Shown: piece after piece, positions 41,843 through 56,833 of the stretch | Position numbering within the stretch: the stretch's first letter is position 1 | How the letters are laid out: each line of letters opens with the position of its first letter | Assembly (NCBI RefSeq): GCF_000007305.1 | Contig: NC_003413.1 | Coordinates: 1,359,318 to 1,423,317, forward strand | Origin: Pyrococcus furiosus DSM 3638 | GTDB taxonomy: Archaea > Methanobacteriota_B > Thermococci > Thermococcales > Thermococcaceae | DNA: 64,000 bases | Reading direction: 5' to 3' | Program-made: the position numbers and the translations under genes | Notes under the pieces: generated by a model | Told to the model about the DNA's origin: nothing | The model's input: only the letters and a program-made list of their open reading frames with translations | The model's database searches: none

Positions 41843-42210
41843 GATTTCCCCTCCAACGTTTTTTGTATTCCCAACAATACCTCAAGAGATACTCCGCTAG
41901 AAGGCGTGAAGACAAACTTCTCAATTTTTGGGCTTACCTCAATAAACCTCCACCCAACATTTAAGAACTTCACAGCCAACACTGGGATCCCTCCAAACCT
42001 TCTTGAAAATTCTATTAATCTGCCCATGTCTCTCTTTCCCACGTACAAATGATCTTTCTTTGTAACCTTAACTTCTATGCACAAATACTTCTTTCCATTA
42101 CCTGCAACTAAGTCAACTTTCTTGCTCCCTGCCGACCTCACCACAGCAAATCCATGCTTTTCCAAGAGCTTAATCAATTCTCTCTCTGCCTGGGCCCCTT
42201 TTCTATACAT
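41839..42210 (-). CDS. hjc: Holliday junction resolvase Hjc
   Basis: A 123-residue nuclease with the type II restriction-like core: Glu in [14 protein letters not shown], the Asp in [10 protein letters not shown] and Glu-x-Lys in CIEVKVTKK. The length and these residues match the well-studied P. furiosus Hjc, which cuts four-way DNA junctions symmetrically as a dimer. It is divergent from a large helicase gene with about 60 bases between, and overlaps a surface-protein gene downstream. Confidence 0.96.
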
Positions 42211-42271
42211 ACAATGTTTTTCCTATCTACCTCTTATAAACTTTTTAAACTCCTTGACATACCCTCTCGAG

Positions 42272-45019
42272 ATGCACATATTGATAAAAAAGGCAATAAA
42301 AGAGAGATTTGGAAAGTTGAATGCCCTTCAACAATTAGCCTTTCATAAAATTAGGGGAGAAGGTAAAAGTGTTTTAATAATAGCTCCGACAGGAAGCGGA
42401 AAAACTGAAGCCGCAGTAATTCCAATCTTAGACGCAATACTACGGGAGAATCTTAAACCTATAGCAGCTATTTATATAGCCCCATTGAAGGCACTAAATA
42501 GGGACTTGCTAGAGAGACTAAAGTGGTGGGAAGAAAAAACTGGGGTAATAATAGAGGTTAGGCATGGGGACACGCCTACCTCAAAAAGATTGAAGCAGGT
42601 AAAAAATCCTCCCCACCTATTAATTACAACCCCTGAAATGCTCCCTGCTATTCTTACGACAAAGTCCTTCCGTCCCTATCTTAAGAACACTAAATTTATC
42701 GTGATAGACGAGATTGGTGAACTTATAGAGAATAAAAGAGGAACCCAGCTAATCCTAAATCTAAAAAGACTTGAATTAATTACAGAAGATAAACCAATAA
42801 GGATTGGCCTTTCTGCAACAATTGGAAGTGAAGAAAAGGTAAGGCTTTGGATGGAAGCGGATGAAGTGGTAAAGCCTCGACTAAAAAAGAAGTACAAATT
42901 TACCGTTTTATACCCTCAGCCAATTCCAGAGGATGAAAAGCTTGCTGAAGAGCTCAAAGTTCCAATAGAAGTTGCAACGAGGCTAAGAGTTGTGTGGGAT
43001 ATTGTAGAAAAGCACAAGAAGGTATTGATCTTTGTTAATACCCGACAATTTGCAGAGATCTTAGGGCATAGACTTAAAGCTTGGGGAAAACCTGTTGAAG
43101 TTCACCATGGTAGCCTTTCAAGGGAAGCAAGAATAGAGGCAGAGAAGAAACTTAAGGAAGGAAAAATAAAAGCACTAATTTGTACCTCATCAATGGAACT
43201 TGGCATTGACATAGGGGATGTTGATGCAGTTATTCAGTACATGAGTCCTCGACAGGTAAATAGGCTAGTCCAGAGAGCTGGAAGAAGCAAACATAGACTG
43301 TGGGAAACAAGCGAGGCTTACATCATAACCACAAACGTAGAAGATTATCTCCAAAGCTTGGCAATAGCAAAGCTCGCACTAGAAGGAAAACTGGAAGATG
43401 TAAATCCCTACGAAAATGCCCTTGATGTCCTGGCTCACTTTATAGTTGGTTTGACAATAGAATACAGAAATGTTAACATTACTGAACCCTATTCCCTTGC
43501 GAAATCTACTTATCCCTACAGAAAGCTCTCCTGGGAAGACTATCAGAAAGTTTTAGAGATTTTAGAAGAGGCTAGAATAATAAGAAGAGATGGAGATGCA
43601 ATTAAGCTGGGAAAAAATGCCTTTAAGTATTATTTCGAGAACCTCTCAACAATACCTGACGAAATAAGTTATGCAGTTATAGATATTGCAAGTGGAAAAT
43701 CTGTTGGAAGACTAGATGAAAACTTTGTTACGGAACTTGAAGAGAGTATGGAATTCATCATGCATGGAAGAAGCTGGATCGTGCTGGAAATTAACGAAAA
43801 AGAAAGGATAATAAAGGTTAAGGAGAGCAACAATTTAGAAAGTGCACTGCCAAGTTGGGAAGGGGAGCTCATTCCAGTTCCTTTGGAAGTTGCAGAATTT
43901 GTTGGAAAGCTGAAGAGAGAGCTCCTATGGGACAAAGAGAGAGCATTAAAACTGCTTGAGGGCGTTGAATTTAATAAGGAAGAACTCGAGGTTGCAATTT
44001 CCCAACTAGTAGAATCAGAACCAGTGGCGAGTGATAGAGATATCATTATAGAATCCTATCCAAAATTTGTGATAATTCATGCTGATTTTGGAAATAAAAT
44101 TAACGAAGGGCTCACAAGATTTATCTCAGTGTTTTTATCCGCCCGATATGGGAATATTTTCCTCCCAAGAAGTCAAGCTCATGGAATTATAATTAGAAGC
44201 CCATTTAGGCTTAATCCTGAAGAAATAAAGGAAATACTGTTAATGAAAGCAGAAGTTGGAGATATTGTTGCTAGAGGAATTAGAGACACTCCAATATACC
44301 GCTGGAAGATGAGTGCAATTGCTAAGAGATTCGGTGCCCTAAGAAGGGACGCGAGAATAAAAAAAGTAGAAAGGCTGTTTGAAGGGACAATAATAGAGAA
44401 GGAGACTTTTAATGAAATTTACCATGATAAAATCGACATTGATAAAACAGAGAAAATTCTAGAAAAAATAAGAAAGGGAGAAATTAGAATGAAAACTTTG
44501 TTCAGAGAGGAAATAACGCCTCTTTCCTCTTCTTTGGCAACCCTAGGAGGAGAGTTTCTAATTAGAGATATACTTACCCAGGAGGAAGTAGAAGAGATAT
44601 TTAGGGAGAAGTTACTCGATGCTGAGTTAGTCATGGTTTGTACAAACTGCGGATTTTCCTGGAGAACAAAAGTTCGCAGGGTTATGGATAGAGTCAATGA
44701 GTTAAGCTGTCCCAAGTGTGATTCCAAAATGATAGCTCCTCTACACCCCAAAGATTCCGAAACTTTCATCTCAGCTCTCAAAAAGTTAAAAAGAGGAGAA
44801 AAGCTTAGTAGGGAAGAAGAAAAGTATTACCTTAGAGGTTTAAAGGCGGCTGATTTACTTAAAGCCTACGGGAAGGACGCTCTTTTAGCATTAGCTACCT
44901 ATGGGGTTGGGGTAGAAAGCGCCACCAGAATACTTAGGGATTATAGAGGAAAATCCCTTATAAAAGCACTTATCGAGGCAGAGAAACACTACATCCAAAC
45001 TAGAAAGTTTTGGGAATAG
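42272..45019 (+). CDS. large Lhr/Ski2-type SF2 helicase with zinc finger (ASH-Ski2 or aLhr class)
   Basis: About 915 residues. Helicase motifs: Walker A APTGSGKTEAA, APLKALNRDL, DEIGEL, GLSATIGS, HHGSLSR and QRAGRSKHR. A winged-helix region and a C-terminal zinc-binding site (CTNCGFSW and CPKCDSK) follow, then a helix-hairpin-helix-like end. This is the Lhr/Ski2 family found across archaea, including ASH-Ski2, which works with RNase J in RNA processing, and the aLhr types. Which subclass cannot be fixed from memory. ATG 42272 chosen because the earlier frame overlaps Hjc. Confidence 0.85.
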   Translation: MHILIKKAIKERFGKLNALQQLAFHKIRGEGKSVLIIAPTGSGKTEAAVIPILDAILRENLKPIAAIYIAPLKALNRDLLERLKWWEEKTGVIIEVRHGDTPTSKRLKQVKNPPHLLITTPEMLPAILTTKSFRPYLKNTKFIVIDEIGELIENKRGTQLILNLKRLELITEDKPIRIGLSATIGSEEKVRLWMEADEVVKPRLKKKYKFTVLYPQPIPEDEKLAEELKVPIEVATRLRVVWDIVEKHKKVLIFVNTRQFAEILGHRLKAWGKPVEVHHGSLSREARIEAEKKLKEGKIKALICTSSMELGIDIGDVDAVIQYMSPRQVNRLVQRAGRSKHRLWETSEAYIITTNVEDYLQSLAIAKLALEGKLEDVNPYENALDVLAHFIVGLTIEYRNVNITEPYSLAKSTYPYRKLSWEDYQKVLEILEEARIIRRDGDAIKLGKNAFKYYFENLSTIPDEISYAVIDIASGKSVGRLDENFVTELEESMEFIMHGRSWIVLEINEKERIIKVKESNNLESALPSWEGELIPVPLEVAEFVGKLKRELLWDKERALKLLEGVEFNKEELEVAISQLVESEPVASDRDIIIESYPKFVIIHADFGNKINEGLTRFISVFLSARYGNIFLPRSQAHGIIIRSPFRLNPEEIKEILLMKAEVGDIVARGIRDTPIYRWKMSAIAKRFGALRRDARIKKVERLFEGTIIEKETFNEIYHDKIDIDKTEKILEKIRKGEIRMKTLFREEITPLSSSLATLGGEFLIRDILTQEEVEEIFREKLLDAELVMVCTNCGFSWRTKVRRVMDRVNELSCPKCDSKMIAPLHPKDSETFISALKKLKRGEKLSREEEKYYLRGLKAADLLKAYGKDALLALATYGVGVESATRILRDYRGKSLIKALIEAEKHYIQTRKFWE

Positions 45020-45092: not shown

Positions 45093-47189
45093 ATGAAAAA
45101 AGCAAGCATATTACTCATCATAATGCTTATTGCCAGTGGGTTAACTATATTTAATCCAAAAGCCCTAGGGCTTGAGAAGTATTCAACACTTACTGTGGGA
45201 TTAAAATTAGGGGGATACATAGAATTTGGAGGAAAGTACGCCGTAAAGTTTGCCGATGTAGACCCCACCAACTGGAATAGGGCTGCAATTGAAATATATG
45301 AGAACGGAAACAGAGTCGCTAGGAAGATACTCGAAGAAGGACAAACTATGTACTATCCTGACGAAAATAATCCTCTATTTGGAGTTGAAGTTACGGGAAT
45401 ATGGGAATCCCAAAAAACAGCATACATAGAGATTAAAACTCCTGTTAAGCTTTTTAAAGAGAATATCACCCTCAAAGAAGGAGAATCTTACACAATGCCT
45501 TCAGGGTTCCCACAGTACAAGATCACTGTTCGTGATGTCCCCTCAGACACAAAGGCTGAGTTAACAATAAGATACCCGGATGGAACTACGGTTACGAGAA
45601 CCCTCGAAAAAGATTATCCTGTGGGAGTGCCCTATAAGATTTCGAGCGAATTAACTCAATCTTCCGTTCTAGTAATTGAATATGTTAAAGCCTCAAAGGA
45701 CAAAAGCGTCACATTTAACCTGTATATTGCTAAGATGATTTTCGCTCCTGCAAAAGTTGTTCAACCCGAAGAACAAAAAGAAGAAAAAACAACTACAGAA
45801 GAACCGATACAAGTTGTTTATGACGATGTCATCTATGCTGGAGAGAAAGTTACAATTACCTACAATAAGACCACTTATCAAATTCAGCTCGTTAGCGTGG
45901 GATATTATTCCAAATTTGACCTCATTATAGACGATAAAAGTGTCGAAACTGCAACAGTTAAAGAGGGAGGGAGCTATATATTTACAAAAGCTCCCCTAAG
46001 GGTGGAAGTTATTCCAAATACAGTAGATCTTAAATACAACAGGTTACAGGCAAAAATCTACGCTCCCATAGGTGCTTCTGGATCTGTAATTCTTAGAGAG
46101 GCAAATATAACCGTGAGACTTGACATAAGCCAGAATAGAGTTTTATTAGGAGAAGAGATAATAGTGTTCATAAAGGTTAAAAACGAAGGAAAAGGTAATG
46201 CATTCAACGTAAAGGTCTTAGCTCCAATCCCAAATAATTTTGAGCTTATAAGTGGTATTGGAACATGGGAACTCTCAAGGCTCGAACCCTTCTCAGAGAT
46301 GCCCGTACTCATTTACACACTAAAACCAAATGCGGTTGGAAACTATAGTCTAGGACCCGTAATTGTGGAGTATTACAACGAACTTGGAAAAAAGATTACA
46401 GTAAAATCAAACATAATAGAAGATATTTCCGTCTATGGAGTTCCACAATTAGAGCTAACTGGTGGGGCAATAAAAGATGGGGAGACTAAGAATTATGCAG
46501 AGAAGGAAACCAACTCAACAATCAGGTTAAGATTCACAATTTCAGCCCAAGGTGAAGATAGTAGATTCGAATTCATCAAGAACGCCACTTTATATCTAGA
46601 GCTTGGTGACTTCTTAGATGGAAAAGACTCTATAGTCCTCGGAACGATCAAAGCTGGAGAAGAAAAGGTAGTTGAAGAAGAATACAAGATATTAAAAGAG
46701 GGAGTGTATCCTTTAAAAGTTATTCTAAAATATCAAGATCCTCTAGGAAATTGGCACGAGGAAATTTATCCAAATGTCATTTTAATAAATTCAGTTCCAC
46801 CTAAAATCATCGTAAAAACTCAGACCATAGAGAAATGGCCAGAACCAGAAGAATTACCAGAATATATTGACAAAGTATTAGCAACGTTAGAGAATGCAAC
46901 ACCTCTTGCTCAGAAGATTTCAAATATAACTGAGAAGTACATTCCCAAACAACAAGAGAAAGAAACTAACATCGTTCCTTACCTCCTGGGAGTTCTAATT
47001 TTAGCCTTAGGCATTGGACTAGTATACACAGCTTACGAACTCAATCTATACAAGACTAAACTTAAAGCACTAGAAGCCAAAAAGAGAAAACCCAGGCCAG
47101 GAGGACTACCAAAGAAAGAAGATAAAACAGATATCAGAGTCTTAGAACAGATAAGTCAACAAGAGACCACAAAGGAGAAGACTCAATAA
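45093..47189 (+). CDS. large surface protein with CARDB domains and C-terminal anchor
   Basis: 698 residues. Signal peptide (KKASILLIIMLIASGLTIF), then several beta-sandwich modules; the part around GEEIIVFIKVKNEGKGNAFN is CARDB-like. Multiple N-x-T sites. A coiled-coil-like region (about 580-615) leads to a single membrane helix (residues about 632-652) and a basic, charged cytoplasmic tail. It opens the seven-gene run to 52552 and has GGAGGGGG before the ATG. Probably a major envelope or pilus-associated protein. Confidence 0.78.
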   Translation: MKKASILLIIMLIASGLTIFNPKALGLEKYSTLTVGLKLGGYIEFGGKYAVKFADVDPTNWNRAAIEIYENGNRVARKILEEGQTMYYPDENNPLFGVEVTGIWESQKTAYIEIKTPVKLFKENITLKEGESYTMPSGFPQYKITVRDVPSDTKAELTIRYPDGTTVTRTLEKDYPVGVPYKISSELTQSSVLVIEYVKASKDKSVTFNLYIAKMIFAPAKVVQPEEQKEEKTTTEEPIQVVYDDVIYAGEKVTITYNKTTYQIQLVSVGYYSKFDLIIDDKSVETATVKEGGSYIFTKAPLRVEVIPNTVDLKYNRLQAKIYAPIGASGSVILREANITVRLDISQNRVLLGEEIIVFIKVKNEGKGNAFNVKVLAPIPNNFELISGIGTWELSRLEPFSEMPVLIYTLKPNAVGNYSLGPVIVEYYNELGKKITVKSNIIEDISVYGVPQLELTGGAIKDGETKNYAEKETNSTIRLRFTISAQGEDSRFEFIKNATLYLELGDFLDGKDSIVLGTIKAGEEKVVEEEYKILKEGVYPLKVILKYQDPLGNWHEEIYPNVILINSVPPKIIVKTQTIEKWPEPEELPEYIDKVLATLENATPLAQKISNITEKYIPKQQEKETNIVPYLLGVLILALGIGLVYTAYELNLYKTKLKALEAKKRKPRPGGLPKKEDKTDIRVLEQISQQETTKEKTQ

Positions 47190-47281
47190 TTTTCACTTCT
47201 TTTTCTTATTATTTCTTCCCGAGTATCCAAAAAAGATTTATTTAAGAACTAAGAAAGTTACAGAATAGGGGGATAGAGAAT

Positions 47282-49378
47282 ATGAGAAAGTTGTATGTAC
47301 TATCCCTACTCCTGCTAATAATCTTGGGAAGTTCCGCGGTAAGCGCGAGCATACTTGAGTATTCTAGCAAAATAACATATGATTACTCACTTGAAACGGA
47401 CAAGATAAAAGATCTCAGCCTTAGCCTGCTTGCCCTTGCAGTTGCAACAGACAAAGCTGAAAGCCTAGACAGAAAGAAGTTGTGGGAGGTTACTGAAAAG
47501 CTACTCTCTCATCAGAACGGAGATGGAGGATGGGGATACTTTTATGGCAGCGTTAGCTCAGTCCCAGATACTGGATATGCTCTTTTAGCTTTAGGAACTG
47601 CACTTGAAAAGTTTGAAGGAGAGTATGATAAAGAGTATAAAATTAAAAGGGCAATAAATCGTGGAGTGGAATTTCTCCTCGATAACTATAATGGAGAAGG
47701 GTGGGGATACCTAAAGAAAATGCCCACTAGTTACTATCCCACATTAATAGCGGTTGTTGCTCTTTCTTCTCTCAATAGAGGATATCCATATACAGAGATT
47801 GCATTTTCAAATGTTCTAAAAAATACAATCCCAGAGAAACCGGAAGAACTTGCGCTATGGATTCTTGCCTATTACAATATCTATAAAGAAGAACCAACGA
47901 ATGTTGTAGAAAAGCTAATTAAGAGTGTCAAAGAGGACTATGAATATCCTTTAGCAGCATACGTTTTGTTAAAAGTTAGAGGACTTGACTTTGAAGCAGC
48001 CAAGTTATTGGCAAAAGCAGAGAGCTATAATGAGTCCTGGACAAGTCCATATTATCCAATATACACGACGATGGCATTTTCTTTAGTCTCAGAAAGCATT
48101 ATACCCCAAGGAGAGGATAAGCTCGCCAAATATTGTGCTCTTCTAGAGAACATGCAAAATGAAGATGGAGGATGGGGAATATACAAGGGTTCACCCTCAG
48201 ATGTTAGAGTCACATATTATGCCCTAATGAGCATGAAAATCTGCAATCCCCAGAGCGAAGCTGTTTATAGAGGATTAGAATTTATGAGAAGGGAGATGGA
48301 AAAGAACAAAGAACTAATCCTAATGGATGGAAAGTTAAGAGATGAGTACTTGTATGCACTTTTAGCACTACTCGAATATAGAAGCTTGGACTGGAATGAG
48401 AGAAAAGTAGAAAGAGCCCTAATAGAGAGTTCGGAATGGGGCTTTGCATATGGTAAGCAACCCCTTACCACAGCTCTCGCCATTAAAGCCCTTTTAAAAA
48501 TGGGTGCCGATAAAACTACTCCTATCGTAAAAGAGAACATAGAATGGTTATTAAGGATAAAGAAAAACGGAGGATGGGGCTTTATCTTTAGAACTGTGAT
48601 AGTTGATTGGAATTATGCTCCAGAGTACCCCGCAACTATTGAAATTTTCAACGTTCTTTGGCCATTGGTAGACGAAGAAGACCTCAAAGATACTATAGAG
48701 CTTCTTAGAAAAACTCCACCAAGAATAGAATGGCAGAAGTTATACGCCTATCTATCATTATCCGAGAAGAGCATTGAGCCTTACTGGAGCCCAGAAATTT
48801 CAGAAAGTGAAAACAATTCATTAACAGTAGCTATGCTCGTAAGGTACTATTCAATGTTCCCAGGAGTAGCAAAAGTCAATTTATATTCAGTCATCACAGA
48901 ACTAAAAGACAAAAATGTTTCCATGATAACAACTACAGAAGTCCTTAAAGACACTGTGAAAGCAATGCTAAAGGATAATTTCAACATCATAGTTAACGAA
49001 ACTGTTTTTGCTGATCCTGAATTATTAGAAGTTCCAGAAAGAGGCAATTGGATCGTCATAGCTCCAATATCAGCTGTGAAAGTTCATGAGTACAATGCAG
49101 ACGTGAAAGTAAGGGTAGGAGAAGAGATAAAAGTTAATGACCTTCCAGTAGAAGGAAAAGCAATTCTATTCATTATTCCAGGGAGAAACAGGAATGGAAA
49201 CTTAATATTCATCCTATATACAGAGCCTAAAGAGTACGCAGAAAAGCTTGCAGAAGTTATTTTCTCACAACCTATAATAAAGTACATCCATGGTAAATGT
49301 GTGGTAATAACATGGAAAGATACTAACAACAATGGAAACGTTGAAATTGAAGAGATTGACATGAAATTCCTAAAATAG
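47282..49378 (+). CDS. exported protein with prenyltransferase/squalene-cyclase-type helical repeats
   Basis: 698 residues, signal peptide (LYVLSLLLLIILGSSAVSAS) and several helical repeats marked by QNGDGGWGYFYG (about 80), YNGEGWGYLKK (about 140), MQNEDGGWGIYKG (about 290) and KKNGGWGF (about 425). These match the alpha/alpha barrel repeats of terpene cyclases and prenyltransferases, but the catalytic aspartate motif is not seen, so it is more likely a structural or binding domain. An EF-hand-like loop DTNNNGNVEIEE sits near the C-terminus and could bind calcium. No membrane anchor. It precedes the CetZ-like gene by 14 bases. Confidence 0.8.
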   Translation: MRKLYVLSLLLLIILGSSAVSASILEYSSKITYDYSLETDKIKDLSLSLLALAVATDKAESLDRKKLWEVTEKLLSHQNGDGGWGYFYGSVSSVPDTGYALLALGTALEKFEGEYDKEYKIKRAINRGVEFLLDNYNGEGWGYLKKMPTSYYPTLIAVVALSSLNRGYPYTEIAFSNVLKNTIPEKPEELALWILAYYNIYKEEPTNVVEKLIKSVKEDYEYPLAAYVLLKVRGLDFEAAKLLAKAESYNESWTSPYYPIYTTMAFSLVSESIIPQGEDKLAKYCALLENMQNEDGGWGIYKGSPSDVRVTYYALMSMKICNPQSEAVYRGLEFMRREMEKNKELILMDGKLRDEYLYALLALLEYRSLDWNERKVERALIESSEWGFAYGKQPLTTALAIKALLKMGADKTTPIVKENIEWLLRIKKNGGWGFIFRTVIVDWNYAPEYPATIEIFNVLWPLVDEEDLKDTIELLRKTPPRIEWQKLYAYLSLSEKSIEPYWSPEISESENNSLTVAMLVRYYSMFPGVAKVNLYSVITELKDKNVSMITTTEVLKDTVKAMLKDNFNIIVNETVFADPELLEVPERGNWIVIAPISAVKVHEYNADVKVRVGEEIKVNDLPVEGKAILFIIPGRNRNGNLIFILYTEPKEYAEKLAEVIFSQPIIKYIHGKCVVITWKDTNNNGNVEIEEIDMKFLK

Positions 49379-49391
49379 AGGTGATAAAACT

Positions 49392-50492
49392 GTGCGAGCC
49401 ATAATAATTGGAATTGGTCAGTGTGGAACAAAAATAGCAGATATATTCTCCTTAGTTGATTTCGAGGCTTTGGCTATCAACACATCAAGAGGAGATCTAG
49501 AGTACCTAAAGCACATTCCTCCAGACCGAAGAATCTTGATAGGAGAGAGTATAGTGGGAGGAAAAGGTGTCAACGCAAATCCAGTGCTGGGTAGAGAGGC
49601 TATGAAAAGAGACCTTCCAATGGTAATGAAAAAGATATCCTCTCTAGTAGGATTTGAAGATGTTGATATCTTCTTCCTAACCTTTGGTTTTGGAGGGGGA
49701 ACAGGAGCTGGGGGAACCCCAGTATTAGCAGAGGCCTTAAAAGAGGAATATCCAGACTCCCTCGTGGTAGCAATAGGAGCCCTACCCTTAAAAGAAGAAG
49801 GAATACGACCAACGATCAATGCTGCAATCACAATCGATAAGCTATCTAAGATAGTGGACTCGATAATAGCAATTGACAATAACAAGTTAAAAGAAAGTAA
49901 CGAAGACATTAGCCAGGCCTACGAGAGGATAAATTATGCAATCGTGGAGAGAATAGCCTCCTTACTGGCTTTAATAGATGTCCCAGGGGAGCAAACTTTA
50001 GATGCAAGCGACTTAAAATTTGTGTTGAGGGCTATGGGGAGCTTTGCAACAGTAGGTTACGCAAAGGCAGACGCAACAAAAATCAAAAGTTTATCTAGAC
50101 TGATAATAAGATCTTTCGAAAACGAGGGTTTATACCTTGATGTTAATATAGAATCAGCTCTTTACGGCTTAGTTGCAATCCACGGACCTCCAGAAGCATT
50201 GAAGGCAAACGAGATCTTTGAGGCATTGAACGAGCTAACCCAAAGGATAAGAGGAAAGCAAATTTTTAGAGGATTTTATCCAGATCCCAGGGAAAGGGAA
50301 GTTGAGGTAGTTACATTGCTCAGTGGAATTTACGAAAGTAAGAGCATTGAAGAGATCGTTATTACAGCCAAAAAATATGCTCAAGAATTTTTAAAAGCTA
50401 AGGAAGAGGGAGAATCTAAAAAGAAGAAGCTACTAAGTGGATTGCCAGATTTCGATGACATATACCCAGGTGAAGCAGATGATCAAAGTTAA
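49392..50492 (+). CDS. CetZ/FtsZ-like tubulin superfamily GTPase
   Basis: 366 residues. The tubulin signature GFGGGTGAGGTPV (about 98-110) binds GTP phosphate; the start MRAIIIGIGQCGTKIADIF and NTSRGDLE match CetZ proteins. CetZ in haloarchaea controls cell shape and motility; the role in Thermococcales is less clear. It starts at GTG after GAGGTGA. It lies in a run of surface and pilin-like genes, which suggests a link to envelope or appendage structure. Its last 14 bases overlap the next gene. Confidence 0.87.
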   Translation: MRAIIIGIGQCGTKIADIFSLVDFEALAINTSRGDLEYLKHIPPDRRILIGESIVGGKGVNANPVLGREAMKRDLPMVMKKISSLVGFEDVDIFFLTFGFGGGTGAGGTPVLAEALKEEYPDSLVVAIGALPLKEEGIRPTINAAITIDKLSKIVDSIIAIDNNKLKESNEDISQAYERINYAIVERIASLLALIDVPGEQTLDASDLKFVLRAMGSFATVGYAKADATKIKSLSRLIIRSFENEGLYLDVNIESALYGLVAIHGPPEALKANEIFEALNELTQRIRGKQIFRGFYPDPREREVEVVTLLSGIYESKSIEEIVITAKKYAQEFLKAKEEGESKKKKLLSGLPDFDDIYPGEADDQS

Positions 50493-51072
50493 AGATTCAG
50501 TTGAAGTGGCCCTTGAACTTGATGAAAAGAGAGTTTATGAACACATAGCTCACGAAAGTGCTGAAGACATGGTTAGGATAATTTCCTCAGTAGACGCTGA
50601 AAGAGCAAAACTCAAGGGGATGACAGTTCACTATATCGACGATTGGGATTTACTGATAAGAGAAAGAATTAGGAAAGGTAAAAGGCATACCGCATTTGAC
50701 TTCTATAATCCAACCCTACTAGAAACCTGGGAAGAAAAAGTCAAACTTGCTAAAAAAATTCTAAGATGGAGAAAATATTCAATAATGGGAATTATAGCCC
50801 TAATTATCGGACTTGGAATTTTAACATTTTTCCTTGAAATCCCCCTAGTAATATTTGGCCTTGCCTTATTCCCAGTGTTGTTTTATCTCAATGACTATCT
50901 TCTCCAAAAGGTTGATACAATATACTACGAACTTGTTCAATTCTTCATATATGAGCTTAGAGAATTAGTTAAGCGATATAAGTTAGACCCCAAAAAATAC
51001 GGATTCACTCTGTACAACCTAGATTATAGGGATGTTGAATTCAATAGAAATAGGGGCATTGTCAAACTATAA
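50479..51072 (+). CDS. membrane protein overlapping the CetZ gene
   Basis: About 197 residues. An N-terminal soluble part (1-105), two adjacent membrane helices (about 107-130 and 132-150) joined by a short turn, and a cytoplasmic C-terminus with YELVQFFIYELRELVKRYKLD. Start ATG 50479 has AGGTGA upstream and lies inside the CetZ gene; the two reading frames overlap by 14 bases, so translation is coupled. No family recognised; it could hold CetZ at the membrane. Confidence 0.72.
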   Translation: MIKVKDSVEVALELDEKRVYEHIAHESAEDMVRIISSVDAERAKLKGMTVHYIDDWDLLIRERIRKGKRHTAFDFYNPTLLETWEEKVKLAKKILRWRKYSIMGIIALIIGLGILTFFLEIPLVIFGLALFPVLFYLNDYLLQKVDTIYYELVQFFIYELRELVKRYKLDPKKYGFTLYNLDYRDVEFNRNRGIVKL

Positions 51073-51119
51073 CCCCAAAGATTAAATATTTCTATGAGTA
51101 GAAAAAAATAGGGGAAAAC

Positions 51120-51701
51120 ATGAAGAAAGGTCAGGTCTCACTGGAATTCCTCTTCATATTTATGATATTCACATTAATCCTCATATACTCAATAAGGATG
51201 ACAACATTTGAGAGTGGGCCTTCAGTAGAGGTCGCAAGAACCCAAATTAGTCTTGAAGAGAAAGCCTTAGCCGATGCAATTTCAAATACAATAAGCCAAG
51301 TATATGCCCACGGCCCTGGTTCAAAGTCTACAACATATGTTCACTTAACATATCTAAGATGGAAAACACAGATAGAGAGGGTTTACGGAATTAATAATCC
51401 CAGCATATTCATTACCTACAAAAATGGAACCTGTGTAACGATAAAAGGAGTATCTTGGATAGAGGAAGGAGGAAACAAAACGGTATTTTGTTCTGAATCT
51501 CTGCTTAAAGTTGACTGGTCAAACAACGGTACTATTTATAACCCATCCACTACTCACGCAGGAAATCAAGGGCTAGAGATCCCCGTGGAAAAGCTCAAAA
51601 AGACCCTTAAGATAGTTGTGGAGTGGAATCCAGATAAAAGCCCAGAGTGGAGTTACAATGAAGCTGAGGGAACTCTATATATAAACATTGGAATAGGGTG
51701 A
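51120..51701 (+). CDS. class III signal-peptide (pilin-like) protein 1
   Basis: 193 residues. MKKGQVSLEFLFIFMIFTLI is a class III signal peptide: basic residues, Gly before Gln-Val-Ser-Leu-Glu-Phe and then a hydrophobic helix. The mature protein has two Cys (TCVTI and VFCSE) that may form a disulfide and several N-x-T sites. It probably forms part of a type IV pilus-like surface filament. First of three such genes in tandem after the CetZ and membrane protein genes. Confidence 0.85.
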   Translation: MKKGQVSLEFLFIFMIFTLILIYSIRMTTFESGPSVEVARTQISLEEKALADAISNTISQVYAHGPGSKSTTYVHLTYLRWKTQIERVYGINNPSIFITYKNGTCVTIKGVSWIEEGGNKTVFCSESLLKVDWSNNGTIYNPSTTHAGNQGLEIPVEKLKKTLKIVVEWNPDKSPEWSYNEAEGTLYINIGIG

Positions 51702-51708
51702 GAAGGCA

Positions 51709-52146
51709 ATGAAGGCTCAACTAAGCATAGACTTCATATTCGCAATGACATTACTCTTGATATTCTCCCTTGGCCTAATGAGCTTTGCATTTGAGGAGAA
51801 AGAAGAAGTTGAGACACTAAACCATGCGGCAAAAGTTAGAGTGTTTGCAATAAGCCTACGAGACATGATAAATAAGGTCTACGCTATGGGGCCTGGGTTT
51901 GCTGTAGTTAAGGATATCCCCTTCACACTAGGTTCAAAAGATAACGTGACAATAACAGTAAGCACTGAAAGGAAAGTCACAGTTGTAGCTTATATAGAGG
52001 GGAAAAAATACACAGTAACTGAGACCCTTCAAGTCCCTATATTTGAAAACACGTCTGTGATTATTGAGAATGAAACTACAAAAAAGATTGTAATAAAGTA
52101 TGAAGATGGAAGAGGTGTGATCCTTGAGAGGGCAAACGGCAATTGA
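51709..52146 (+). CDS. class III signal-peptide (pilin-like) protein 2
   Basis: 145 residues. Opening MKAQLSIDFIFAMTLLLIF: Ala before Gln-Leu-Ser-Ile-Asp-Phe, a cleavable helix of class III type with Asp instead of Glu at the +5 position. The rest is a small beta-rich domain without cysteines and with N-x-T sites. Seven bases separate it from the previous pilin-like gene; it overlaps the next one by 23 bases. Confidence 0.82.
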   Translation: MKAQLSIDFIFAMTLLLIFSLGLMSFAFEEKEEVETLNHAAKVRVFAISLRDMINKVYAMGPGFAVVKDIPFTLGSKDNVTITVSTERKVTVVAYIEGKKYTVTETLQVPIFENTSVIIENETTKKIVIKYEDGRGVILERANGN

Positions 52147-52552
52147 ATTTATGCTAATATTTGGAGTGATAATGGTCACTATCATTGTTTTATTTCATCC
52201 CATATTAACTAATCAGAGAGACACAATTGTAACAAGTACTTTTAAGGAGATCGCCTCAGATGCATGTTACTATATAAACCTGGGAGTCAAGGTAGAAGAC
52301 TACGAGCATGAGCCACTGAACAATTTAGTTGGAAATGTTAAGTGTAACTTTCTAGGAATTTCCGTCGATTCAACTACCGGCGAGATTAGGGTAACGTTGA
52401 AATTCGAGGTAAATGGTAATGCTCAAGATTTTGCTAGTGGAATCATAGAGTATATTAAAAGGAGGATCACGGAAATTAGAGGATTCACAATAACAGATAA
52501 AGGCGAAATATTTTACAGAGATTCTAAAATAACAATTGAAATCCTCACCTAG
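52124..52552 (+). CDS. class III signal-peptide (pilin-like) protein 3
   Basis: 142 residues, starting MRGQTAIEFMLIFGVIMVTI, a textbook class III signal with Gly-Gln and Glu at +5. The C-terminal part has SIKVED-like strands and two cysteines (DACYYI and VKCNF). It overlaps the previous pilin-like gene by 23 bases and converges with a 92-residue gene. The tight packing of three such genes suggests one minor-pilin set. Confidence 0.83.
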   Translation: MRGQTAIEFMLIFGVIMVTIIVLFHPILTNQRDTIVTSTFKEIASDACYYINLGVKVEDYEHEPLNNLVGNVKCNFLGISVDSTTGEIRVTLKFEVNGNAQDFASGIIEYIKRRITEIRGFTITDKGEIFYRDSKITIEILT

Positions 52553-52827
52553 TCTTCTATTATCTCCACACTACCAAAAGCGTTTAAAGAATGCAAAATT
52601 AGGAGATAAAGGGTCGTGTAAGGCTCAATTCCATAAGTTTTCACGAATCCACTTCCTTTCTTAGGAATTACTAGTATTTCTACCTTTTTAAAGTCTGGAA
52701 TTATTATGACATCTCCCCGAGCCCTAATCTTAAAATTCCACCGCAATCCTTTACAAACCCTACTAAGAAATGCTATAGCTCCTTCCCATTTGTCCACGTT
52801 CGTTTTATAATATATGGTATATCCCAA
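52549..52827 (-). CDS. small hypothetical protein
   Basis: 92 residues, soluble, alpha-beta in character with a strand ending FKVEILVIPKKGSGFVKTYG-like pattern and an N-terminal MGYTIYYKTN. One Cys. No domain recognised. It is convergent with the last pilin-like gene (four-base overlap) and divergent from the exported gene at 52953. Codon usage and frame coherence support a real gene, function unknown. Confidence 0.65.
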   Translation of the reverse strand: MGYTIYYKTNVDKWEGAIAFLSRVCKGLRWNFKIRARGDVIIIPDFKKVEILVIPKKGSGFVKTYGIEPYTTLYLLILHSLNAFGSVEIIED

Positions 52828-52952: not shown

Positions 52953-53429
52953 ATGATGATAAGTAAAAGAATTATGCTCATGATCCTAGGAGTAGTTATC
53001 CTAACACCCACAGTCTCTGCATTAAGCATTAGCTGTCCTTCTGAAGTACTATATGATCAAACTCTTCAGTGTGAAATCATAGGAGTTAGCAAACTCAAAG
53101 AAGATAACATAGAAGTAATGCCTCCTTTGCCAGTTTTTATTGAAGACAAGCATGTTAGGATTTATACTGATACTATTATCCAGAGAAGGCGTGAGAATTT
53201 TAGAGTTGCTTTAGGCCCAATGCCTAAATGGGTTGTTGCAGCGGCTCCCCTAAATCTTTCAATTCTAATAAAAGATCCAGAATCTAAGATGACTTATTAC
53301 TTCAACAAAGTGGTCTACTTAAAAGTACCGCTCAAGAAGATTTTGAAAGCTATTGGCTTTGGAGCATTTGTAATTGGAGTTATCTTTATAGAAGTTCTTC
53401 CGCAATATACTTCCGGAAGAGCTTTGTAG
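52953..53429 (+). CDS. exported hypothetical protein with C-terminal helix
   Basis: 158 residues: signal peptide (RIMLMILGVVILTPTVSAL), a small beta domain with two Cys (SCPSEV and QCEIIG) that may form a disulfide, and a C-terminal membrane helix near residue 133-150 ending in LPQYTSGRAL. No family recognised. The next gene begins nine bases later in another frame, without a ribosome site; a single frame change would join both into one membrane protein of about 365 residues. Confidence 0.65.
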   Translation: MMISKRIMLMILGVVILTPTVSALSISCPSEVLYDQTLQCEIIGVSKLKEDNIEVMPPLPVFIEDKHVRIYTDTIIQRRRENFRVALGPMPKWVVAAAPLNLSILIKDPESKMTYYFNKVVYLKVPLKKILKAIGFGAFVIGVIFIEVLPQYTSGRAL

Positions 53430-53437
53430 CTTCAATT

Positions 53438-54052
53438 GTGGGTCCTATTTTATGGCTTGGGGATAAGTATTTAGTGACTCTCTCAGCTCTCATTGTTTAT
53501 TTTGGACTTTCAATTACCTGGGATGGAAGTTTAGATAAAAGTGCTCAAGAACTTATTAAGAGCTTAGTTGTAACTGGGAGCATAACAGTTATTCTCCTAT
53601 TGGGAATTGCACTTGCACTTGGATTATATTTAAACAAATATCCGAAAGTTTCGTTCTTTACAGGGTTGGAATGGACAACTCTCATCCCCCTAGCACTTGG
53701 TTCATCTTCTAGAGAAGACTACACCATAAGCTTTTTCATTCATATCTTCTTGATATGCATAATAGCGATTATAATATGGCGCTATGCAGACTATCCATAC
53801 TCCAAGTGTAGAAAAGCTCTTAACTTCTTTGATAAATTCTCTATCCCTTTCAATTTCCTATTACTTAGCTTCTTTTATGCATTTTATGTTGTGAAAACTC
53901 CAAAGCCTGTTCAAGCGTTTTTCTTAGCCACAACAGGATTTTTTATGTATTCAACTAAATTAGCCTTTGAAAAGGTAAAAGAGGCCAAAATTCAGTTTGA
54001 TAAGGACATAAAACGCATCGAAAGAGGAGGCATGAATATTTATAGCATTTAA
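53438..54052 (+). CDS. multi-span membrane protein
   Basis: 204 residues if GTG 53438 is the start; about six hydrophobic segments (such as LVTLSALIVYFGLSI, GSITVILLLGIALALGLYL, FIHIFLICIIAIIIWRY, and FNFLLLSFFYAFYVV). The C-terminus is a charged helix (FEKVKEAKIQFDKDIKRIER). No ribosome site precedes the GTG, and the frame is open further upstream, so this may be the 3' part of a gene joined to the preceding one. No family recognised. Confidence 0.6.
   Translation: MGPILWLGDKYLVTLSALIVYFGLSITWDGSLDKSAQELIKSLVVTGSITVILLLGIALALGLYLNKYPKVSFFTGLEWTTLIPLALGSSSREDYTISFFIHIFLICIIAIIIWRYADYPYSKCRKALNFFDKFSIPFNFLLLSFFYAFYVVKTPKPVQAFFLATTGFFMYSTKLAFEKVKEAKIQFDKDIKRIERGGMNIYSI

Positions 54053-55756: not shown

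Positions 55757-56833
<1,077 letters not shown>

Follow-up and report, generated by a model that had tools for sequence, protein, structure and literature searches.

Within the 64-kb stretch of Pyrococcus furiosus DNA analysed here (which we refer to as the window), seven genes on the plus strand, designated A through G, follow one another in a closely spaced run. The initial annotation of this DNA had described them as a tightly packed set, and all seven open reading frames proved to be present at the positions given there. The features of the region are as follows.

45093..47189, plus strand: gene A, 698 residues; CARDB/DUF11-like and exported, with a single membrane helix at the C-terminal end followed by the basic tail motif RPGGLPKK.
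47231..47244, plus strand: BRE/TATA-like site before B (window z 2.3).
47282..49378, plus strand: gene B, 698 residues; exported; its alpha/alpha toroids, of squalene-cyclase fold, are accompanied by an alpha/beta region at the C-terminus that contains an EF-hand-like loop.
49392..50492, plus strand: gene C, CetZ, 366 residues; GTG start; C-terminal motif GLPDFDDIY at residues 350-358.
50479..51072, plus strand: gene D, 197 residues from the conserved ATG at 50479 (the longest open reading frame begins at 50437); a membrane protein with a two-helix hairpin.
51075..51088, plus strand: weak BRE/TATA-like site before E (window z 1.1).
51120..51701, plus strand: gene E, a predicted minor pilin with a class III signal peptide, above the Class_IIIsignal cut-off.
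51709..52146, plus strand: gene F, a class III signal-peptide-like pilin, by its leader pattern.
52124..52552, plus strand: gene G, a class III signal-peptide-like pilin; TTG start; the final gene of the run in P. furiosus.
52549..52827, minus strand: gene H, small and conserved; identified in 66 of 84 loci, it marks the end of the locus in relatives.
52549..52552, no strand: junction of G and H, whose convergent 3' ends overlap by 4 bases; relatives carry genes P4, P5, P6 and M250 here.

Intergenic distances are 92 bases between A and B, 13 between B and C, 47 between D and E, and 7 between E and F. Genes F and G overlap by 23 bases and C and D by 14, the latter confirming, from the conserved start of D, the earlier description of a two-helix membrane protein overlapping CetZ. 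A helicase gene (42077-45019) lies just 5' of the run in the same orientation. On the other side, two plus-strand genes of 158 and 204 residues occupy 52953-54052, between H and guaA, and have no relatives among the 84 loci and no Pfam match above cut-off; the PurP gene at 55757-56761 is PF1517, identical over 334 residues to the PurP protein of solved structure.

Gene C is a CetZ-like GTPase, as had been proposed, scoring above the curated Pfam cut-offs for both Tubulin (PF00091; 105.6 bits, cut-off 33) and CetZ_C (PF21011; 58.3 bits, cut-off 21.6) and containing the loop GGGTGAG. At its C-terminal end it carries a short motif, GLPDF[DE]DxY, which is present at the same end in 84 of 84 full-length CetZ sequences; the mean frequency of the top residue is 0.94 within the motif versus 0.80 in the linker before it and 0.48 in the end that follows. 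The motif is absent from six FtsZ-like proteins taken from six genomes of the phylum. CetZ of the window is about 90-95% identical to its Pyrococcus-type orthologs, and the corresponding range for B, E, F and G is 26-51%. CetZ accompanies D in all 70 D-positive genomes checked (of 89), and was not found in 21 other genomes of the phylum outside the family. Five genomes of the family yielded neither CetZ nor D; since all five are drafts, the locus may simply be unassembled there.

The membrane protein D consists of a very conserved N-terminal domain, a membrane hairpin at approximately residues 97-142, and a C-terminal segment. Conservation is highest over residues 1-85 and weaker in the C-terminal part, and the hairpin is variable: columns at least 98% conserved number 42 of 80 in the N-terminal part, 2 of 48 in the membrane part, and 8 of 45 in the C-terminal part. 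D was found in 89 of the 94 genomes of the family Thermococcaceae, and a search of 21 other genomes of the phylum gave nothing convincing (one weak match is not D). Neither Pfam nor structure comparison connected D with a known family or fold; the predicted model is of moderate quality (mean pLDDT 76), and fold comparison with it was uninformative. On the basis of the positive-inside rule for membrane topology, both ends of D, including the strongly conserved part, are probably cytosolic. Considering its conservation and its position, we propose that D is the likely anchor of CetZ; the conservation of the CetZ tail motif and that of D both point toward CetZ as an anchored polymer. A membrane anchor of FtsZ or CetZ working like SepF, FtsA or ZipA would bind both the tubulin tail and the membrane; D has a membrane hairpin together with conserved parts that probably lie in the cytosol, and its binding of the tubulin tail is putative.

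For the two large proteins that precede CetZ, the earlier descriptions were correct in part. Gene A had been called a CARDB-type anchored protein of 698 residues; by eye it does have a single C-terminal membrane helix, and its matches to CARDB (19.7 bits, cut-off 22.7) and DUF11 (23.0 bits, cut-off 24.6) are weak and both below cut-off. All ten A proteins inspected, that of the window included, end in a basic, cytosolic-looking RPGGLPKK or RPGGLPKR behind the membrane helix. A adjoins B in 8 of 60 loci compared, as well as in the additional locus L001, and these are the loci with the CetZ nearest to that of the window (89.6-95.1% identical in the 8 A-carrying loci, and at most 87.5% in all others). 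Gene B, described as a 698-residue exported repeat protein, is indeed exported, and its repeats are alpha/alpha toroids of the terpene-cyclase type; an ortholog stands beside CetZ in 58 of 60 loci and is missing from that position in the remaining 2. Squalene/hopene cyclases, which are enzymes, have a catalytic DxDD motif in the toroid. This motif is absent from the toroid of B, which speaks against identifying B as such an enzyme.

The run ends in what had been annotated as three class III signal-peptide proteins. Among these, only E exceeds the cut-off of the Pfam family Class_IIIsignal (37.1 bits, cut-off 23.7); G falls below it at 18.4 bits and F has no match to that family, so that for these two the assignment depends on an N-terminal KA/RG-Q...[DE] pattern recognized by eye. 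Each of the three is present in 60 of 60 loci compared.

To place the run among its relatives, we compared 60 loci from the 89 D-positive genomes among the 94 in Thermococcaceae, chosen mainly for long contigs. The genes B-C-D-E-F-G-P4-P5-P6-M250, followed by the convergent H, occur in this order in 56 of the 60; two of the other loci lack B, in one M250 (DUF2101) has moved, and one is cut by a contig end. CetZ itself is present in all 60, and the window has the same order from B to G. An order so widely retained among the relatives compared shows that the run is not a product of chance. The initial annotation had suggested a synteny search, with a lack of conservation of CetZ next to pilin-like genes counting against its proposal; instead, CetZ stands next to class III pilins in every one of the 60 relatives compared. 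In a further set of 24 loci, E follows D in 18, and five stop at CetZ or D or directly behind one of them. The one exception is locus L015 of genome G054, where B-C-D are followed by ABC-transporter genes and E-F-G-P4-P5-P6-M250-H-guaA lie intact on a second contig (L148). The split falls exactly between D and E, and the genome has kept both blocks as well as PilB. The linkage of CetZ to the pilins is thus not required, since the two blocks are unlinked in G054.

The proximity of CetZ to pilus genes is already known, and the locus is best described as known but uncharacterised. The statement in the initial annotation that no system of this composition had been described does not stand, as both PMC4858521 and PMC9856176 report that CetZ adjoins type IV pilus genes in Thermococcales. 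An FtsZ-family GTPase and a squalene cyclase were noted in the clade 1 pilus loci of most Thermococci (Makarova 2016, PMC4858521, citing Szabo 2007), and all 15 Thermococcales cetZ regions analysed by Brown & Duggin (2023, PMC9856176), who included and discussed P. furiosus CetZ, were associated with pili, leading to the proposal that CetZ acts as a type IV pilus scaffold. According to the same source, CetZ function is known from few studies, all in H. volcanii, whose CetZ1 and CetZ2 have a negatively charged tail. We regard it as nearly certain that the run in the window belongs to this CetZ-linked clade-1 type IV pilus locus of Thermococcales.

Two blocks are also apparent in the distribution of promoter-like sites. 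BRE/TATA-like sites with z>2 precede E in 47 of 60 relatives and B in 31 of 58, with P4 in between (12 of 60). No such site precedes A in any of 8 loci or D in any of 60, and they are rare before C and F (2 of 60 each), P5 (1 of 59) and M250 (3 of 58). In the window, the corresponding z values are 2.3 before B (clear), 1.1 before E (weak), 1.7 before C and 2.6 before F. Taken with the split in G054, the sites before B and E in relatives suggest two transcription units, B-C-D and E onward, and the run in the window may yield more than one transcript. Separate promoters had been named beforehand as a point against a joint system, and the sites before E in relatives bear this out in part; the window's own site before E is weak, and its values by themselves are compatible with one transcript as well as with two.

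No pilus ATPase or platform gene is part of the run, and the earlier suggestion that a motor would be borrowed agrees with what is seen in relatives, where a PilB-type motor is encoded elsewhere. Of the 94 family genomes, 93 have a PilB-type ATPase match with an E value of 1e-95 or lower (the match in G085 is weaker), and in 41 genomes whose motor and CetZ/D genes share a long contig the two are 32-972 kb apart, with a median of 253 kb. Given this distance, the locus of relatives is, as judged from gene positions, one that works with a motor encoded in trans. We take the ATPase provisionally to be of clade 1, following Makarova 2016 (PMC4858521). A gene of 353-356 residues adjoins it in L025-L028. 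As side observations, an intein-sized insert after residue 468 is frequent in this ATPase (G013, G015, G016 and others), and one 1097-residue open frame (G007:C29:1647-4652) contains tandem PilB-like segments.

A run with neither ATPase nor platform gene could in principle be a new, self-standing machine linking cytoskeleton and surface without any type IV pilus assembly. Class III leaders, however, require a prepilin peptidase, and the strong PilB-type match in nearly all relatives also speaks against such a machine, as does DUF2341, found in 47 of 59 P6 proteins of relatives and likened to pilus-tip adhesins (Makarova 2016, PMC4858521); we consider this reading barely credible. It is distinctly unlikely, but less remote, that CetZ and the pilins are neighbours only, CetZ acting in cell shape or metabolism with the synteny simply inherited. 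The separate promoter-like sites of B-C-D and the pilins, their unlinking in G054, and the distance of CetZ from the motor gene would all fit such an arrangement, as would the CetZ proteins of Archaeoglobales, Methanomicrobiales and Methanosarcinales, which are encoded away from pilins (PMC9856176). Against it, the order is kept in 60 of 60 loci even as the surface genes diverge to the low identities given above, and halobacterial cetZ2 often adjoins a different pilus operon (PMC9856176).

The window departs from its relatives at the 3' end of the run, where P4, P5, P6 and M250 are missing from the site between G and H. In relatives, all four are on site in 58 of 60 loci (one of the others has a moved DUF2101 and one reaches a contig end), M250 being a DUF2101 membrane protein (domain checked for L020). 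No relative of any of the four was detected within the 64-kb window at E<0.1, nor by profile at 1e-4. The DUF2341 domain of P6 is present in 47 of 49 long and 0 of 10 short (359-485 residues) proteins. The P6 proteins of L069-L128 form size classes spanning 359-1217 residues, and DUF2341 is lacking in each of the ten smallest. As 12 of 59 P6 proteins of relatives lack it, this presumed adhesin domain is dispensable in some relatives, though the P6 gene itself is not missing there; for the same reason, the lack of the distal genes is not decisive for membership in the locus.

One explanation for the gap is that the four genes now lie at another place in the genome, leaving the pilus complete. 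Precedents exist: in G017 the DUF2101 gene lies alone about 36 kb from the locus (L144:12251-12970), in G054 the whole of E to M250 lies apart from CetZ, and DUF2101 is found in 87 of the 94 family genomes. In the window, however, it is the pilin block itself, tightly packed in relatives, that is broken (between G and P4), and none of the four genes turned up within the window. We hold relocation to be somewhat unlikely.

Alternatively, the pilin part may be decaying in the P. furiosus lineage, the distal block having been deleted and E, F and G losing their role, while CetZ and D persist in a different function, for instance in cell shape. Beyond the absence of P4 to M250, this would fit the changes at columns that are 90% conserved: window G has 5 of 12 such columns changed, the highest of 61 sequences, F 3 of 13 (tied for most) and E 5 of 39 (third among 61 orthologs), and the figures for D are 3 of 75 (8th of 61) and for B 8 of 77 (6th of 59), all of these counts being small. 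By eye, the window branches of the non-CetZ genes are also long relative to guaA. Yet E, F and G are intact open reading frames with leader-like N-termini, and surface proteins evolve fast in every lineage compared. Decay is, in our estimation, unlikely.

The reading that we favor, and consider reasonably probable, is that the window holds a shortened copy of the CetZ-linked clade-1 pilus locus, built in two blocks and with D as the likely CetZ anchor. B-C-D would form one block and the pilins another. CetZ would polymerise (putatively) beneath the membrane and be tethered through its tail GLPDF[DE]DxY to the conserved region of D that probably faces the cytosol; held there, the polymer would then mark or scaffold the site where the PilB/TadC machine inserts E, F and G as minor pilins, with the exported B helping the pilus base at the cell surface. 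With no P6 at the locus, the pilus may be adhesin-poor, or its tip protein may be borrowed from elsewhere. The step in which CetZ is anchored by D is the more tentative part of this scheme, and we put it at somewhat less than an even chance. A bolder version of the proposal, which we offer as a quite unlikely conjecture, makes B-C-D a separable, separately transcribed CetZ anchoring module whose tail docks on D to create a membrane-bound organiser of the clade-1 pilus, so that P. furiosus, having shed P4-P6/DUF2101, would possess a minimal CetZ-pilus unit, perhaps a DNA-uptake pseudopilus. The DNA-uptake idea arises because type IV-like pilus genes, including that of a DUF2341 protein, were recovered in a screen for transformation defects in M. 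maripaludis and are needed for its transformation, and because P. furiosus, like T. kodakarensis, is listed as naturally competent (PMC10133366).

Comparison with known systems shows where the window copy differs. Like the Thermococcales CetZ pilus regions (PMC9856176), in the same order of organisms, it has CetZ next to pilin families whose order is conserved; a GLPDF tail, D as an anchor, separate promoters and a copy without distal genes are not mentioned in that paper, supplements aside. Neither that paper nor PMC4858521, supplements again aside, mentions the tail motif, an anchoring role for D, the construction in two blocks or the shortened copy. With the clade 1 archaeal type IV pili of PMC4858521, of which the M. 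maripaludis pilus is the studied example, the locus shares the FtsZ-family GTPase, the squalene cyclase, the minor pilins and DUF2341 proteins (compared there with PilY tip adhesins; here DUF2341 is in the P6 of relatives), but the window copy lacks P4, P5, P6 and DUF2101 at the locus, and the ATPase lies elsewhere in relatives. The cetZ2-pilB2/C2 loci of Haloferacales and Halobacteriales likewise place a CetZ paralog beside pilins; they differ in containing ATPase and platform genes of their own, and CetZ2 forms a distinct subfamily (PMC9856176). The M. maripaludis transformation pilus is type IV-like with a DUF2341 protein, as in the locus of relatives, but has a role in natural transformation, and CetZ is not mentioned in the part of PMC10133366 drawn on here.

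In P. furiosus, nature has already parted the CetZ core from the distal genes, so the role of that core can be approached with no engineering; G054, with its split locus, shows that the two blocks are able to exist separately. For the broader question of how archaea place surface machines with relatives of tubulin, the locus offers a test case in two hosts listed as competent.
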